From: Candidatus Saccharimonadota bacterium
GTDB lineage: Bacteria; Patescibacteriota; Saccharimonadia; Saccharimonadales; Saccharimonadaceae
Direction: 5' to 3'
DNA: 49,523 nt
NCBI GenBank assembly: GCA_017433245.1
Contig: JAFRHO010000007.1
Span: forward strand, 1-49,523
Positions 32,843 through 39,072 of this stretch are shown one piece after another; position 1 is the stretch's first letter, and each line of letters begins with the position of its first letter. A program made the position numbers and the translations under genes. The notes under the pieces are model-generated. The model was not told where the DNA came from. It worked only from the letters and a program-made list of their open reading frames with translations, and did no database searches.

Positions 32843-33340
32843 ATGAGTTTTTCGATATTAAAACAGATTGGTGACGCACAGAAAAAGAAGGCCGTGGTGG
32901 ACGTGCGACCTGGTGATACTGTACGGGTCACGCAGAAAATTAAAGAAGGTAATAAGTTCCGTTTGCAGACGTTTGAAGGTGTAGTGATTCGAGCTGATCG
33001 TAAGGAATCACATACTGCGCGAATTGTAGTCCGGAAGGTTACTTCAGGTGTGGGGGTGGAGAAGTCATATTTGATTCATTCGCCACTAGTGGAGAAGATT
33101 GTGATTACGAAGCGTTCGAAAGTACGTCGAAATAATTTGTCGTATTTACGTGAGCGCTCTGGTAAGTCGGCAAGGCTTGCTGGTCGCGATTTCGACCGTG
33201 TAGCAGTGAATGATGTGACGGTGCCAGAGGAACCAGTCGAGGAAGCTCCGGCTGAGGAAGTAGTGAAAGAAGAAGCGGAAGTTGAGGTTGTAGAAACCCC
33301 AGTAGAGAAAGAAGAGAAAGCTGATAAGGCTGAAGCCTAA
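32843..33340 (+). CDS. rplS: 50S ribosomal protein L19 with acidic tail
   Basis: The 165-residue protein has a normal L19 core (residues 1-115: PGDTVRVTQKIKEG, QTFEGVVIRADRK, YLIHSPLVEKI, VRRNNLSYLRERSGKSARL). A C-terminal extension of about 50 residues is made almost only of Glu, Val, Ala, Pro and Lys (EEPVEEAPAEEVVKEE). L19 sits at the interface of the 50S and 30S subunits. Tails of this kind are unusual in longer-studied bacteria. The TAA stop overlaps the ATG of rnhB by one base. Confidence 0.95.
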   Translation: MSFSILKQIGDAQKKKAVVDVRPGDTVRVTQKIKEGNKFRLQTFEGVVIRADRKESHTARIVVRKVTSGVGVEKSYLIHSPLVEKIVITKRSKVRRNNLSYLRERSGKSARLAGRDFDRVAVNDVTVPEEPVEEAPAEEVVKEEAEVEVVETPVEKEEKADKAEA

Positions 33341-34308
33341 TGGCGATACTCGGAATAGATGAAGTTGGACGCGGACCCCTAGCGGGTCCGCTTGTTGTGG
33401 GTGCAGTAATCTTGCCAGAGGATAAACCGGAATGGGTAGAAGAGTTACGCGATTCGAAGAAGTTAAGTGCGAAGAAACGTGAAGTCTTAAACGAGGTGAT
33501 TTTGAAGGGGGCAATTGCGACAGGATTGGGTTGGGTGTCGGCGGTGGAACTGGACGAAGTGGGGATTTCGGAAGCTTTGAGGATAGCAACCAGTCGAGCT
33601 GTGAAGTCAGTTCAGGGACTTCACGCGCCATTTTCACAGATAGTAATTGATGGAAAAGTGAATTTTCTGAAGGGTACAGCGTTGGAGAAGTTTGTTTCGA
33701 CTATGCCGAAGGCGGATAATCTAGTGAAAGAGGTGTCGGCGGCGTCGATTATTGCGAAAGTGGCACGGGATCGATATATGACGGAACTAGCGGAGAAATA
33801 TCCGCAATATGGGTTTGAACAGCACGTGGGGTATGGAACAGCGAAGCACATGACAGCGATTAATGAATTTGGAATTTGCCCGGAACATCGGAAGAGCTTT
33901 GAGCCAATTCGGAGTATGGTGGGTTTTTCGCGTGCAGGTTCGCGGGTAGAGCCGAAAAAGAACACGAGTTTAGTAGGGAGCATGGGGGAGGATGCAGTAG
34001 CTCAATATTTAACTGAACATAAGCATATAATAATAGCACGAAATTATCGGACGCCATTTTATGAGATTGATATTGTGTCGGTAAGGGAAAGGCAGATTTA
34101 TTTTACAGAGGTGAAATATCGGAAAGATGATTTACGCGGTGGAGGATTAGCGGCGGTAGATAAAAGGAAGTTAAAGCAAATGGAGTATGCGGTAGAGTGT
34201 TTTATGAAATATTATGCAAAGAAATATGGTGGAATGGAGCCTTTGCTTGCGGTAGCAGATGTGGCGGGAGATGATTATATAGTCAAAGAGTGGTTAGAGA
34301 TCAACTAA
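33340..34308 (+). CDS. rnhB: Ribonuclease HII fused to YraN/UPF0102 nuclease-like domain
   Basis: The 322-residue protein joins two families. Residues 1-195 are RNase HII, with catalytic D7 and E8 (GIDEVGRGPLAGP), D104 (IVIDGKVN) and D144 (ARDRYM), plus the GYGTAKHM substrate loop; it removes RNA from RNA-DNA hybrids. Residues 212-322 are a YraN (UPF0102) restriction-endonuclease-like domain with GEDAVAQYL, YEIDIVS (E242, D244) and FTEVKYR (E257, K259). The linker (196-211) is short. The two genes are often neighbours in bacteria, so the fusion supports a joint role in replication or repair. The frame is continuous and the start overlaps the rplS stop. Confidence 0.93.
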   Translation: MAILGIDEVGRGPLAGPLVVGAVILPEDKPEWVEELRDSKKLSAKKREVLNEVILKGAIATGLGWVSAVELDEVGISEALRIATSRAVKSVQGLHAPFSQIVIDGKVNFLKGTALEKFVSTMPKADNLVKEVSAASIIAKVARDRYMTELAEKYPQYGFEQHVGYGTAKHMTAINEFGICPEHRKSFEPIRSMVGFSRAGSRVEPKKNTSLVGSMGEDAVAQYLTEHKHIIIARNYRTPFYEIDIVSVRERQIYFTEVKYRKDDLRGGGLAAVDKRKLKQMEYAVECFMKYYAKKYGGMEPLLAVADVAGDDYIVKEWLEIN

Positions 34309-34359: not shown

Positions 34360-35349
34360 CTAGACATTGAATTTGAACTCGACGACGTCGCCGTCTTGCA
34401 TACGATAGGTTTTACCTTCGGTACGGAGGAGTCCGGCTTCTTTGACGGCTTTTTCGGAACCGAGGCGAGCGAGGTCGTCGTATTTACAGATATTAGCGGC
34501 GATAAAGCCCCTTTGAAAGTCAGTGTGAATGGTGCCGGCGGCTTCGGGGGCAGTAGAGCCTTTCTTGATAGTCCAGGCGCGGCATTCTTTCTTGCCAGCA
34601 GTGAGGAAGGATTGGAGGCCTAAGGTCTCGTAGGCGGCTTTGATGAGTTCGCCCAGAGCATCGTCTTTGACACCATAGGATTCAAGGAATTCTTTGCGCT
34701 CTTCGCGGTTCATGCCGGACATTTCTTCTTCTAATTTGGCATTTACGAAAATCGCTTGGGCAGGTTTGACGAGGTCTTTTAGTGCGGATTGGAGAATAAT
34801 GTCTGTAAGGCCGTTTTCGTCGACATTAAACATATAAATGACGGGTTTGTCGGTGAGGTAGGGGATGTTTTCATCTGTTGGGTCTTTCTTGCGCTTTCCC
34901 TCGACTTTGGCTTTGGTTTCTTCGTCGGCGAGTTGTAGCTCGAGGTTGATGATGTCGATATCGTCTTTGGCTTGACTTACGATGTCCTCCTCGGGCTTGT
35001 TGTCGGCTCTTACTATATCGTTATTCTTGAAGGCTCTAACTACGTGACAGATTGCTTGGCATTCGCGAATGTGGGCGAGGAATTTATTGCCGAGACCTTC
35101 GCCCTTGGAAGCTCCTTGGACTAAGCCGGCGATGTCGACGAATTCAACGGTGGCAGGGACCACTTTGTTAGTTTCGTACATTTTAGCAAGAACGTCTAGA
35201 CGCTCGTCGGGGACAGGAACGATGCCGACATTTGGCTCAATGGTAGCAAAAGGATAGTTGGCGGCGAGCGCGCCAGCGTTGGTGAGTGCATTAAATAGTG
35301 TAGATTTACCGACGTTGGGTAAACCGACGATTCCGATCTTTAAATTCAT
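34360..35349 (-). CDS. ychF: Redox-regulated ribosome-binding ATPase YchF (OLA1)
   Basis: The 329-residue Obg-like ATPase starts at the ATG at 35349; an in-frame TTG six bases upstream is less likely. Motifs: P-loop GLPNVGKSTLFNALT, DIAGLVQGASKGEGLGNKFL (switch II, with the YchF-specific helix), and the noncanonical NVDENG in place of NKxD, as known for ATP preference in this family. The C-terminal TGS-type domain holds GTIHTDFQRGFIAA and the end is DGDVVEFKFNV. It binds ribosomes and is a conserved stress regulator. It is convergent with rnhB. Its 5' end (first seven codons) is duplicated at 36545. Confidence 0.96.
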   Translation of the reverse strand: MNLKIGIVGLPNVGKSTLFNALTNAGALAANYPFATIEPNVGIVPVPDERLDVLAKMYETNKVVPATVEFVDIAGLVQGASKGEGLGNKFLAHIRECQAICHVVRAFKNNDIVRADNKPEEDIVSQAKDDIDIINLELQLADEETKAKVEGKRKKDPTDENIPYLTDKPVIYMFNVDENGLTDIILQSALKDLVKPAQAIFVNAKLEEEMSGMNREERKEFLESYGVKDDALGELIKAAYETLGLQSFLTAGKKECRAWTIKKGSTAPEAAGTIHTDFQRGFIAANICKYDDLARLGSEKAVKEAGLLRTEGKTYRMQDGDVVEFKFNV

Positions 35350-35417
35350 AACCAACCTGTGATATCTGTTATTGTTGTCATAATTATAACATAGTTTGGT
35401 ATATAATATAATGTATG
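35329..35417. repeat. 89-bp direct repeat, copy 1 (ychF 5' end plus divergent promoter region)
   Basis: This stretch and 36545-36633 align without gaps with seven mismatches in 89 bases. It contains the start codon and first codons of ychF (minus strand), the ychF -10 ATTATA (35383-35388), the plus-strand TATAAT (35402-35407) and the ATG of the MFS gene. Confidence 0.92.
35383..35388 (-). promoter_or_regulatory. -10 box of ychF
   Basis: TATAAT on the minus strand, about 33 bases before the ATG at 35349, so ychF has a leader of about 27 nt. A second, divergent -10 lies at 35402-35407 on the plus strand. Confidence 0.6.
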
Positions 35418-36521
35418 AATAATCGGGTGAGATTCAATTTCTTCTTATTTATCTCGACCTTTGCGAGGGCATTGATTGAGGTTTTTATTTCTCTATTTCT
35501 GTTTAAAAATGGTTTTTCGATTGATTCGATACTTTTGTTTTATTTACTAGAGAACTTGGTTGCTTTATTTATCTCATATTTTTTTGTGAAAATTGGAGAG
35601 AGATTTAACTACTCTATTGTAATGCAGATTGGTGTGGCTTCATTTGTTGTATTGCAATTTGCCTTAAATAATATGGCTTATGACTCTTTATTTATAGTAA
35701 TTGTAGCGTTTTTGTATTCATTGTATAGACGAGGATATTGGGTGGCGAGAAGATATTACGTAACTGAAGTAATACCAAAGAGAGATTCATCGGGGCCATT
35801 TAGCATTATGATGGTTATATCGGAAATAGCATCAATTTTGGCAGGATTCTTGGGTGCATCATTACTGGATGGATTCAATGTGGCAATTTTGACTGCAATT
35901 TCTTCCAGTTTATTGTTTGTGAGCATAATTCCTTTATTGGGAATAGAAAGTAAAACAAAAAGAACTAAAATTGAATTAATTAAGAATTTGAAGAAATACG
36001 ACAAGAAAAATTATTTGGCTTTTTCACTATACGAAATTAATAACGTATTGGCGTTTATTTTTCCGATTTTTATTGCCATTTATATTAAAGATACGTATGT
36101 AATGGCTGGGGCCGTAAATGCAATTGGTAGTTTAGCTATAATTGTGTTTATTTTGGTCTATGGAAAAATAATTAAAAAGCGGAATTATTTTGTGCTTAGT
36201 TCAATTCTTTTTGTCTTAATATGTTTTGTTAAATTATTGCCCCTAGATTATTTCATATTGATAATATGCTTTTTGGAAAGTTTTATCAAGAAAATGCAGG
36301 AGCAATCAGCTAATAAAATATATTTCGAAAATAGGAATAATATGGACTTAACACATTATAATTTGATATATCAACTACTTGAGGCATTAGCTAGAGCGAT
36401 TGTAGTTGTTCCCCTAATATTCATGAAGGACATGAGATTAATGATAGTGTTTGTTTTGACTGTAATTAGTATTGAGTTGGTTATTTATGCTTGTTTAAAA
36501 AAGAATCAGAGATTGAAATAA
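35415..36521 (+). CDS. MFS transporter
   Basis: The 368-residue membrane protein has about 10-12 hydrophobic segments with the loop between the second and third starting KIGERFNYS, and a basic loop YRRGYWVARRYYVTE. It resembles major facilitator permeases; the substrate cannot be read from the sequence. The start is the ATG at 35415, seven bases after TATAAT (35402-35407), so a leaderless mRNA is likely. The ATG four bases earlier meets a stop after three codons. Its A/T-rich codon use differs from the ychF and rnhB neighbours. The gene lies exactly between two copies of the 89-bp repeat, suggesting it is a later insertion with the duplicated promoter. Confidence 0.8.
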   Translation: MNNRVRFNFFLFISTFARALIEVFISLFLFKNGFSIDSILLFYLLENLVALFISYFFVKIGERFNYSIVMQIGVASFVVLQFALNNMAYDSLFIVIVAFLYSLYRRGYWVARRYYVTEVIPKRDSSGPFSIMMVISEIASILAGFLGASLLDGFNVAILTAISSSLLFVSIIPLLGIESKTKRTKIELIKNLKKYDKKNYLAFSLYEINNVLAFIFPIFIAIYIKDTYVMAGAVNAIGSLAIIVFILVYGKIIKKRNYFVLSSILFVLICFVKLLPLDYFILIICFLESFIKKMQEQSANKIYFENRNNMDLTHYNLIYQLLEALARAIVVVPLIFMKDMRLMIVFVLTVISIELVIYACLKKNQRLK

Positions 36522-36544
36522 GATAGGTTGGTTTAAAAATTTAA

Positions 36545-36633
36545 GATTCCGATCTTTAAATTCATAACCAACCTGTGATATCTGTTATTATAGATATAAT
36601 TATAACATATTTTGGTATATAATATTATATATG
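36545..36633. repeat. 89-bp direct repeat, copy 2
   Basis: Carries a dead fragment of the ychF 5' end and the promoter region, now placed before the 36631 gene. Compared with 35329-35417 it has substitutions only (seven), all in the A/T-rich part between the -10 boxes and at the start codon. Confidence 0.92.
36618..36623 (+). promoter_or_regulatory. -10 box of the nuclease operon (in repeat copy 2)
   Basis: TATAAT lies seven bases before the ATG at 36631; leaderless mRNA predicted. The promoter was gained with the duplicated block. Confidence 0.7.
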
Positions 36634-36921
36634 GATGAGAAAAAAGAACATAAAAAGATTTTACATACAGAATGGTCGATTACTGAGCCAATAAAACTGG
36701 ATGATGTTTGTGTTTTAGAGTCTACGGGGCAAGAATTTCTATGTTCAAAAATTATTCCATACGAACAATTTGAGTATTTATATTTTGGAAGTTTTGACTT
36801 TAAAGAAATACTTTTTGCAGTTCAGTGTAGGTTGGATGGTAAAAATTATTTGAAGGTATTATCTGAGAAATCACAACAAGAATTCGCTTATAATCTATAT
36901 AGGGCTGAGGTAAAGAAATGA
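36631..36921 (+). CDS. Small partner protein of the repeat nuclease
   Basis: The 96-residue protein has no membrane segment. It shows KLDDVCVLESTGQEFLCSKIIPYEQFEYLYFGSFD and alternating strand-like stretches. I do not recognise a family. It overlaps the start of the next gene by ATGA (36918-36921), so the pair is translationally coupled. An inhibitor, specificity or immunity partner for the nuclease is plausible from the arrangement alone and not shown by the sequence. Cysteines at residues 27 and 38 may form a pair. The A/T-rich codon use matches the nuclease. Confidence 0.72.
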   Translation: MDEKKEHKKILHTEWSITEPIKLDDVCVLESTGQEFLCSKIIPYEQFEYLYFGSFDFKEILFAVQCRLDGKNYLKVLSEKSQQEFAYNLYRAEVKK

Positions 36922-38735
36922 ATTTTGAGAAATTACCTTCTGTGCCTGATGCGTATGACAAAACAAAAGCGAAAGCGATTCAGGAAGAGACTGGTAAAAA
37001 AGTTTTGGAAATGATAAGTTTAGATGATGTAAGAGATAACGATGTGGAACAAATTCCAAATGATTATCTTACGATAAACGGGATATCCAAGAAGATTGGC
37101 ATAGATAATAGACTAATAAAGAAAAAAATTGAAGAATTGAATATAATAGGAAATGTTTTTAAACATAAGAACGGTCGTCCTTTTGTTTGTTATTCTCCTG
37201 ATGAACAGGAACAAATATTTAATTCATTGAGATATCTTTTTTCAGCGGAGCGAGTTCCGGAAGGATATTTAACTATCCAGGGGTTGTCAAAAGAAATAGG
37301 AACAAGTCCTAGGATATTGAAGGAAAAAATAGATGAATTGCGGTTGGAGGGTAAGGAGTATAAAGATTCTGGGGGGAAGTTGCATGTGTATTTTTCTAAA
37401 GAACAACAAGAATTGGTTCGTGATTCTTTGAAACATTTTATTAGAACAGAACAAGTTCCAGAAGGGTATCAAACAGCTAATAGTCTAGCTGAAGAGCTAT
37501 CAGTTAACAATAGAATTATAAAAAAGGCTGTAGAAGAACTTCAACTGAAGGGGAGTGATTATAAAAACAGTTTGGGAAGAGTTTTTACTTTCTTTTCTCC
37601 AGAAGAACAAAGACAGATAATTGACTCGTTAGGGTATCTTCTTTCTGCGAAACAAGCTCCGGAAGGATACTTAACTATTTCAGGGTTATCGAAAGAGATT
37701 GGAATAAGTGTTGATATCATTAGAGAAGGGATAAGAAAACTAAATATAGATGGCGATGAATATAAAGATGATAGAGGGCGCATTTTTACCTTCTTTTCTC
37801 CAAACGAACAGGCTCAAATTCGTGACTTTTTAGAATCCTATATTATGGCAGAACAAGCTCCGGATGGGTATTTAACAATTAATGATATTTCGCAATTAAT
37901 TGGGATAAAGAGTAGAAAACTAATAAAGGAAAAGATTAAAGAGCTGAAACTGGTTGGGAATAAATTCAAAGACAAAAAAGGTCACATATTGACTTTTTAT
38001 TCTCCAGAGGAATGTCAGTGCATTTATAATTCTTTAAACTATTTATTATCGAAAAGCGAGGCTCCAGATGGTTTTTTAACTTATAATAGGATTGCGGATT
38101 CAATTGGCGTTAGCGATTCAACTATCAAAAATGTAATAGAAGAACTAGGTGTGTTAGGGAGTCAATATAAAGATGGGGTAGGTAGAGTAGCTACCTTTTA
38201 TTCTCCAGAAGAGCAAAGTATATTATTGGAGGCAATTGAATCGAGAAGATTTAACGTAAGCTTTCCGGAGAATGCCGCAGCTTTTTATTTTGAGAGTGTT
38301 GGACAAAGAATTAGACAAAGCTTTCGTCCTGATTGGCTTAAAAATCCAGATACTGGAAGGAATTTAGAAATAGATATTTTTGTTGATCCGCCAGGAATAG
38401 GAATAGAATATGATGGTAGTTTTTACCACCAAAATATCGAGCGGGATACAAAAAAGGATAGTATAGCACAAGAGAGCGGATATCATATTATTCATATTCG
38501 CGAAGATGGCTGTCCAGAAATGCCTGAAGGTTCTTATTGCATAAAACGTAAAAATAATCATGATGATACGGATTTAGGAGAGTGTATAAAAAAGTGTTTT
38601 GAGATGTTAGATATTCCTGCACCTGATATTGATGTTGCTCGTGATAAAAAAGATATCATGGCGTTTATGCGACAAAGGGTACTTGATAAACTTGATTCGG
38701 CTAGGACGTTTGAAGAATTATCGGTTGCTTCTTAG
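36918..38735 (+). CDS. Six-repeat HTH array fused to a Vsr-like PD-(D/E)XK nuclease
   Basis: The 605-residue protein has six tandem units starting at residues 47, 114, 181, 248, 315 and 383, that is every 67 (last 68) residues. Each reads P-(E/D)-G-Y-L-T, then SKEIGI-type helix-turn-helix, KIDEL-type helix, a basic KYKD/GR loop and FYSPEEQ. This looks like a winged-helix or HTH unit. A nuclease domain follows at about 446-560 with LEIDIFV (E484, D486), GIEYDG (E497, D499), H504 and R509-D-x-K; the pattern matches Vsr/DUF4379-like restriction nucleases. A helical tail ends the protein. The role is unknown: modular recognition with DNA cleavage, as in defence or a selfish element, is inferred. 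A 96-residue partner precedes it with ATGA overlap. Confidence 0.8.
   Translation: MNFEKLPSVPDAYDKTKAKAIQEETGKKVLEMISLDDVRDNDVEQIPNDYLTINGISKKIGIDNRLIKKKIEELNIIGNVFKHKNGRPFVCYSPDEQEQIFNSLRYLFSAERVPEGYLTIQGLSKEIGTSPRILKEKIDELRLEGKEYKDSGGKLHVYFSKEQQELVRDSLKHFIRTEQVPEGYQTANSLAEELSVNNRIIKKAVEELQLKGSDYKNSLGRVFTFFSPEEQRQIIDSLGYLLSAKQAPEGYLTISGLSKEIGISVDIIREGIRKLNIDGDEYKDDRGRIFTFFSPNEQAQIRDFLESYIMAEQAPDGYLTINDISQLIGIKSRKLIKEKIKELKLVGNKFKDKKGHILTFYSPEECQCIYNSLNYLLSKSEAPDGFLTYNRIADSIGVSDSTIKNVIEELGVLGSQYKDGVGRVATFYSPEEQSILLEAIESRRFNVSFPENAAAFYFESVGQRIRQSFRPDWLKNPDTGRNLEIDIFVDPPGIGIEYDGSFYHQNIERDTKKDSIAQESGYHIIHIREDGCPEMPEGSYCIKRKNNHDDTDLGECIKKCFEMLDIPAPDIDVARDKKDIMAFMRQRVLDKLDSARTFEELSVAS
37056..38252 (+). 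repeat. Six tandem 67-residue units in the nuclease
   Basis: Units begin at nt 37056, 37257, 37458, 37659, 37860 and 38064. They are conserved as protein (P-G-Y-LT, I-KEIG, G-x-YK, FSPEEQ) but diverged as DNA, which indicates an old duplication kept for function. Confidence 0.85.
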
Positions 38736-39072
38736 ATTTTCCTAACTCTTTTAATAAAATGTCTGAAAAGCCACGCTTTCTGTGGTCTGGTTTTGGTAAG
38801 GGGATCTTGATTGAAAGCGGGATAAAAGAATCAGGTAGGTTTGGAAATTCCCAAATTTTAAATGTTGACTAAAATATCATTATGTGTTATTATGGTTATG
38901 TAATAGTTCAATTCGCCCATTCGCGTGCTATTGCCGTAGAAATTGAGGTCTGACAAGACTGAATAATGGAGTAAGTTGAAAATCTTCTTCATGAATGGCA
39001 AAAATATCAAATAATTTTGGTGTTTTGCTATTTGTGAAGGAGATTTTTTGCAGAACACCAGGAAGGAGTAAA
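38736..39072 (+). promoter_or_regulatory. 337-bp gap: promoter and long leader of the methyltransferase gene
   Basis: TTGACT (38865-38870) and TATTAT (38888-38893) have a 17-bp spacer. The start near 38900 gives a leader of about 170 nt. In it lie an eight-codon frame ATG-TAA at 38991-39014, a stem GGTGTTTTGC (39019-39028) with GCAGAACACC (39050-39059; one G-U pair), and in its loop AAGGAG followed by a short TTG frame that stops at 39071, one base before the real ATG. The first 130 bases of the gap contain no gene. A translational attenuator is possible. Confidence 0.55.

Follow-up and report, generated by a model that had tools for sequence, protein, structure and literature searches.

A Saccharibacterium encodes a 605-aa protein, P0001, in which six tandem winged-helix units are joined to a single C-terminal nuclease domain. 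We read it as a sequence-specific DNA endonuclease of the EDxHD/Vsr-like (homing-endonuclease) type, encoded by a free-standing gene, served by a coupled regulatory partner, P0002, and carried as cassette cargo; we put the probability of this reading at roughly 55%. Saccharibacteria are tiny parasitic bacteria, and the source genome spans 0.69 Mb in 15 contigs and is 78% complete. The window, that is the whole stretch of 49,523 nucleotides that was analysed, holds both genes, and their ORFs lie where an earlier note on this DNA had placed them, with the stop of P0002 and the start of P0001 overlapping by 4 nt (Table 1). The pair has a G+C content of 30–34%, against 49% in neighbouring ychF, and this AT-richness fits the expectation for acquired DNA.

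Table 1. Features of the nuclease locus and its surroundings, in positions of the window
Feature	Position	Strand	Basis
Primary element copy; overlaps ychF codons 1-7; without hairpin left arm	35314..35420	+	sequence comparison
MFS transporter gene; neighbouring cassette, outside the nuclease system	35415..36521	+	Pfam; element-bounded
Internal cassette-boundary element; inverted-repeat hairpin and copy of ychF 5' end and promoter region	36515..36636	+	
P0002, 96-aa small partner	36631..36921	+	ORF
P0001, 605-aa winged-helix-array nuclease (predicted)	36918..38735	+	ORF
Winged-helix unit 1 (predicted)	37056..37256	+	period 67, alignment A3
Winged-helix unit 2 (predicted)	37257..37457	+	period 67, alignment
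Winged-helix unit 3 (predicted)	37458..37658	+	alignment; best HTH_11 stretch aa 186-212
Winged-helix unit 4	37659..37859	+	AF2 model; VIA Z 9.3 to 8csh
Winged-helix unit 5; longer by one residue (68 aa)	37860..38063	+	alignment, AF2 model
Winged-helix unit 6	38064..38264	+	AF2 model; RacA DNA-binding domain matches here
Vsr/EDxHD-like PD-(D/E)XK nuclease domain (predicted); E451 D486 E497 D499 H504 D510 K513 E529	38253..38627	+	A4 alignment, fold matches 3r3p, 1cw0, 1vsr
Possible degenerate element copy 3' of nuclease gene; partial matches only	38802..38900	+	

Anatomy of the array nuclease

The first residues of the six units are 47, 114, 181, 248, 315 and 383. The earlier note had found them at these residues and had called their 67-residue spacing constant; the positions were correct, and the spacing is 67, 67, 67, 67 and 68, the extra residue sitting in unit 5. 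Self-identity of P0001 reaches 0.345 at lag 67, compared with at most 0.149 across lags 20 to 120 in 2000 shuffles. The HTH-like core described earlier for each unit was confirmed by Pfam HTH_11 (PF08279), which matches repeatedly, in 5 stretches with 59.3 bits (cut-off 25; E 3.4e-16), and by an AlphaFold2 model of residues 248-605 (units 4-6 and the nuclease; 25 aligned rows). The model has a pLDDT of 90 and a pTM of 0.56, and because the pTM is low it does not fix the placement of the units and the nuclease relative to one another. Each modelled unit is a winged helix, consisting of a helix-turn-helix, a beta hairpin and a helix. Units 1-3 are assigned as predicted winged helices by sequence.

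The closest structural match of a unit is the DNA-binding domain of pSK1 Par on centromere DNA (8csh; Z 9.3, 53/53 residues, rmsd 1.2), followed by RacA and MerR-family proteins (5i44, Z 7.6). The winged helices of MerR, RacA and pSK1 Par act singly, usually in dimers, whereas P0001 has six in tandem on a nuclease. Neither a NUMOD profile nor DUF4379 (PF14311) appeared among Pfam matches to P0001 up to E 10, and when P0001 was compared by sequence with solved structures, only chance matches came back.

Residues 446 to ~570 form an alpha-beta-beta-beta-alpha-beta core in the model. Its fold matches the catalytic domain of I-Bth0305I (3r3p; VIA Z 7.9, 94/97 residues) and Vsr (1cw0 and 1vsr; Z 7.6-7.7), in agreement with the Vsr-type PD-(D/E)XK pattern that had been read from the sequence. 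Other PD-(D/E)XK nucleases (Bax1, NGO0050, Can2) match about equally and a Z of 7-8 is middling, so that the Vsr and I-Bth0305I matches set the fold and not the exact branch. A PHROG homing-endonuclease profile matches P0001 at E 1.7e-5. Pfam MTES_1575 (PF18741) scores 19.6 bits, below its cut-off of 38.2, and P0001 is not counted as a member.

In an alignment of 22 relatives, two of them from viral contigs (a phage-like one and one bearing giant-virus-like genes), E451, D486, E497, G500, D510 and K513 are invariant, and conservation reaches at least 90% at S448, Y457, E484, Y498, D499, H504, G521 and E529. The acidic residues and histidine listed in the earlier note (E484, D486, E497, D499 and H504) are thus real; it missed the invariant E451, and its R-D-x-K motif gave way to a conserved basic motif D510-x-x-K513 in the 22 relatives. 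The conserved E, D, H and acidic pair make up a predicted EDxHD/Vsr-like active site, and the modelled core fold places P0001 in the EDxHD/Vsr-like homing-endonuclease superfamily. A stand-alone nuclease domain with the shared signature PDWLKN..TG.NLE.D was seen on a viral contig with giant-virus-like genes, as judged by eye (L050 5177-5560).

The anatomy of P0001, as predicted from sequence and model, supports well the modular DNA-reading nuclease that had been proposed. Three outcomes named beforehand as fatal to that proposal were repeats of another fold, loss of the acidic residues and no conserved pairing with the small gene; what was found is a modelled winged-helix fold, conserved acidic residues and a small gene kept in L005 and G442.

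Relatives with other arrays

Matches to the nuclease profile occur in 18/174 genomes of the genus. Most are proteins of 400-980 aa in which the nuclease is embedded in a DUF4379-type zinc array (in L037, Pfam confirms DUF4379 in 11 stretches with 538 bits), and the earlier statement that such nucleases usually carry zinc repeats is therefore true of this genus. The five nucleases of non-zinc type form a single clade in the maximum-likelihood tree (support 100/99); three genomes have arrays of the 67-aa winged helix, one has an HTH-like repeat of 53 aa and one has mTERF repeats. The protein with 53-aa repeats branches first, the mTERF and 67-aa proteins form a subset (99/97), and the three winged-helix nucleases group together at 88/81. 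Because one clade holds three array types, the array has been exchanged around one nuclease in this small group. It looks as though the nuclease has been retargeted in nature by swapping its reader.

The mTERF member (L048 17429-18622, G434:C17 end; Pfam mTERF 6.2e-20) carries its repeats after the nuclease. Ahead of its nuclease it keeps a short stretch that can be aligned to the last part of a winged-helix unit (78 columns including gaps, 37% identity), which suggests that it may descend from a winged-helix form. The 53-aa member (L033 7461-8588 and L122 1480-2464, both G442) is found with a P0002 homologue. In G442 an ORF of 53-aa repeats lies near the end of contig 36, and the end of contig 13 has the same repeats and the nuclease; most likely the two ORFs are one gene split by the assembly, the contig ends being without exact overlap. 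The L006 relative, taken from genome_contigs, is cut off inside its array. No further member of the clade was found in a 393-genome sample of the class at 1e-20. A scan of viral contigs with the nuclease alignment gave only zinc-type or stand-alone distant relatives. A tblastn search of phages gave only Listeria phages, several annotated as DUF4379, with the nuclease domain alone covered, and a plasmid search gave one zinc-ribbon protein and nothing else.

The winged-helix units are found on other proteins as well. SF2 helicases (ResIII-like) of other Saccharibacteria end in C-terminal arrays of P0001-type units (L108 3704-6136, L115 1331-3640, L119 3334-5922), and four further proteins (L109, L111, L113 and L114) fuse such arrays to a common N-terminal domain without known family. 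Since units of the same profile occur on helicases and on another N-terminal domain, the unit is a predicted DNA-reading module in use across the class. Such arrays apart from this nuclease would suit a P0001 that is a DNA-binding regulator with a catalytically irrelevant, vestigial nuclease fold, but the active-site residues are kept in 22 relatives with very different arrays, and we regard this explanation as highly improbable.

Units also diverge and duplicate within an array. Over their first 51 residues, units 2 and 6 of L005 are identical but for a single residue, the mark of a recent module copy. Amino acid identity between L005 units is 45% in the HTH and 77% in the wing, and the many synonymous differences in the wing point to constraint, not fresh copying. 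The window protein has no such contrast (HTH 42%, wing 41%). An exceptionally variable recognition helix is thus true of L005 and false for P0001, and no code is claimed.

Engineered ZFNs and TALENs place tandem DNA-reading modules on one nuclease domain. P0001 has the same plan; it is natural, is built of other modules and has no known code. Vsr shares the fold of the nuclease domain; it consists of one small domain that deals with T:G mismatches and has no array. I-Bth0305I, an EDxHD homing endonuclease, has the same predicted catalytic fold, and its nuclease domain is likewise attached to a long DNA-binding region of several motifs (PMC3943268, which also describes the NUMOD principle). P0001 differs from it in having six uniform 67-aa winged-helix units in place of heterogeneous motifs, in lying outside an intron and in being encoded with a partner. 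CapR/DUF4379/DUF723-like repeats with EDxHD/Vsr-like domains have been described as a large unrecognised outgroup of homing endonucleases (PMC12350094). The DUF4379/CapR type has a homologous nuclease (mostly E 1e-16 to 1e-24 in the genus) and long arrays of ~55-60-aa repeats; in P0001, by contrast, the repeat is a winged helix and not a zinc treble clef, the nuclease is C-terminal to the array and not inside it, and a partner gene is present. NUMOD-type add-ons are also DNA-reading modules added to homing nucleases (PMC3943268, PMC12350094), but P0001 matches no Pfam NUMOD family and has a uniform long array. P0001 is thus a variant of known array-bearing homing-type nucleases with a different reader. 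Literature searches returned only array nucleases of the zinc type; long uniform winged-helix arrays on a nuclease are undescribed as far as we found.

The partner protein and the proposed mechanism

The AF2 model of P0002 is an SH3-like beta barrel with a C-terminal helix (pLDDT 89.5). No sequence family was found in Pfam, NCBIfam, PADLOC or PHROG, and no firm fold match; the best has a Z of 5.0, various SH3-like barrels and kinases follow at lower values, and we therefore do not deduce a function from the fold. The pairing with the small gene recurs: a gene 70% identical to P0002 occupies the same position before the nuclease gene in L005, and on contig 36 of G442 a homologue precedes and overlaps the ORF of 53-aa repeats, the array type of the same clade. 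Members of the family thus stand before two arrays of the 67-aa type and one of the 53-aa type. Searches of the mTERF genome (G434), of a set of zinc-type nuclease genomes and of the viral contigs gave no homologue. Elsewhere, proteins of this small SH3-like family stand directly after or beside unrelated proteins (L121, L123-L126, L128 and L129).

For this pair we infer DNA binding, the length of the site, cleavage, homing and the role of P0002 as follows. The six units would lie in tandem along the DNA and jointly read a long site, and the single PD-(D/E)XK domain at the end of the array would make a metal-dependent cut. P0002, translationally coupled, most likely binds to P0001 and regulates it. 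Specificity would shift as units diverge or duplicate and, over longer times, as the whole array type is replaced. The pair would move as accessory cargo, here as one cassette at ychF. Homing is proposed because of kinship to homing endonucleases; the gene is free-standing in the cassette array, as some homing endonuclease genes are, and not within an intron, an intein or a broken host gene, and so it lacks the signature of classical homing. A wider proposal, which we consider less likely than not, is that the family is an evolvable platform in which a cutter with a dedicated regulatory partner is retargeted by unit duplication and divergence and by exchange of array type among winged helix, other HTH repeat, mTERF and zinc ribbon; there might even be a readable code of unit to base step. 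If a unit does match a base step, the array would be a new modular scaffold for reading DNA. The small clade can serve to test how homing-type nucleases change targets, and P0002 offers a handle on the restraint of such a nuclease.

The main rival is a nuclease that defends its host. Here the array would read a sequence conserved in phages, plasmids or competing mobile elements, incoming DNA would be destroyed, and P0002 would restrain the enzyme. The accessory cassette location and sparse distribution of the pair fit a defence gene equally well; a small protein encoded with the nuclease and the greater divergence of the HTH than of the wing between L005 units also speak for it. Searches of defence libraries, on the other hand, returned generic HTH matches and no PADLOC defence family beyond these, and the pair has no coupled methyltransferase or other self-marking gene. 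A methyltransferase downstream was rejected as a modification partner; by Pfam it is not a DNA methyltransferase and resembles small-molecule enzymes, and it turns up in G002 and G447 with no such pair beside it. Kinship of fold and family favours a selfish, homing nuclease, and we consider defence rather unlikely.

The small coupled gene also raises the idea of a toxin-immunity or addiction pair, with a nuclease that harms a competitor or a cell that loses the cassette and with P0002 as immunity protein. Translational coupling and co-inheritance in L005 and G442 are as such a pair would have them. No secretion or delivery domain was found with Pfam, however, several P0002 relatives lie beside other proteins without the nuclease, and the mTERF relative has the nuclease in a genome where no P0002 homologue was found. 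This makes a toxin-immunity pair improbable. The roles first suggested for P0002 (inhibitor, cofactor or immunity factor) and for the system (defence, selfish or anti-competitor element) stay at the level of what we infer.

A cassette array at ychF

A ~100-nt element precedes the MFS gene and again precedes P0002, the two copies being 91% identical. The ychF-proximal copy contains ychF codons 1-7 in reverse, and internal copies have, besides this, the left arm of an inverted repeat, which in the window reads AGGTTGGTTTAAAAATTTAAGATTCCGATCTTTAAATTCATAACCAACCT. The P0002-P0001 pair is one cassette of this array in the window. The MFS cassette corresponds to the second cassette of G403: 1259 bp match at 94.8% DNA identity, and the match begins and ends within the element. 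In G403 its right neighbour is another gene and not the pair.

The element is present in 124/170 genomes of the genus. At every ychF locus read (the window, L073 and L160-L179), the array opens with a copy whose start lies at -34 to -41 relative to that of ychF. A further 1-4 copies follow, all pointing one way; differing genes lie between them, and the spacing is mostly 0.3-2 kb and in one case 6 kb. As in an integron, a primary site is followed by hairpin sites and short cassettes in a shared orientation. This is a genus-wide, integron-like cassette array at the 5' end of ychF, in which the primary site has no hairpin and the copies that separate the short cassettes do have one. A tyrosine recombinase (PF00589) was absent from the source genome at its 78% completeness. 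At least one is present in each of 8/8 relatives, though in G141 and G001 it lies away from the array, and no recombinase tied to the array was found in the source genome or the relatives searched. A literature search found no report of a ychF cassette array. We regard it as a second finding, at least as interesting as the nuclease, that merits its own study.

The nuclease might act on the cassette site itself and promote insertion or shuffling of cassettes. The pair lies within the array in the window and probably also in L006, where the element directly follows the P0001 homologue. The element is widespread in the genus, however, while the nuclease clade is confined to a handful of genomes, and the L005 pair comes after tRNA-Val, at a place where no element was detected. 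A role at the ychF site is therefore very unlikely, and cargo of the array remains our preferred description of the pair.

Cassette contents at ychF vary and include, by eye, transporters and NDT-like, MazG-like, GNAT, Nudix and other genes. The commonest, at 10/102 ORFs, encodes a ~130-aa protein on either strand (L166:5104-5571, L160:8986-9375, L164:8444-8833). Elsewhere in the window, at 33340-34308, a ribonuclease HII is apparently fused to a YraN-like domain, as judged by eye.
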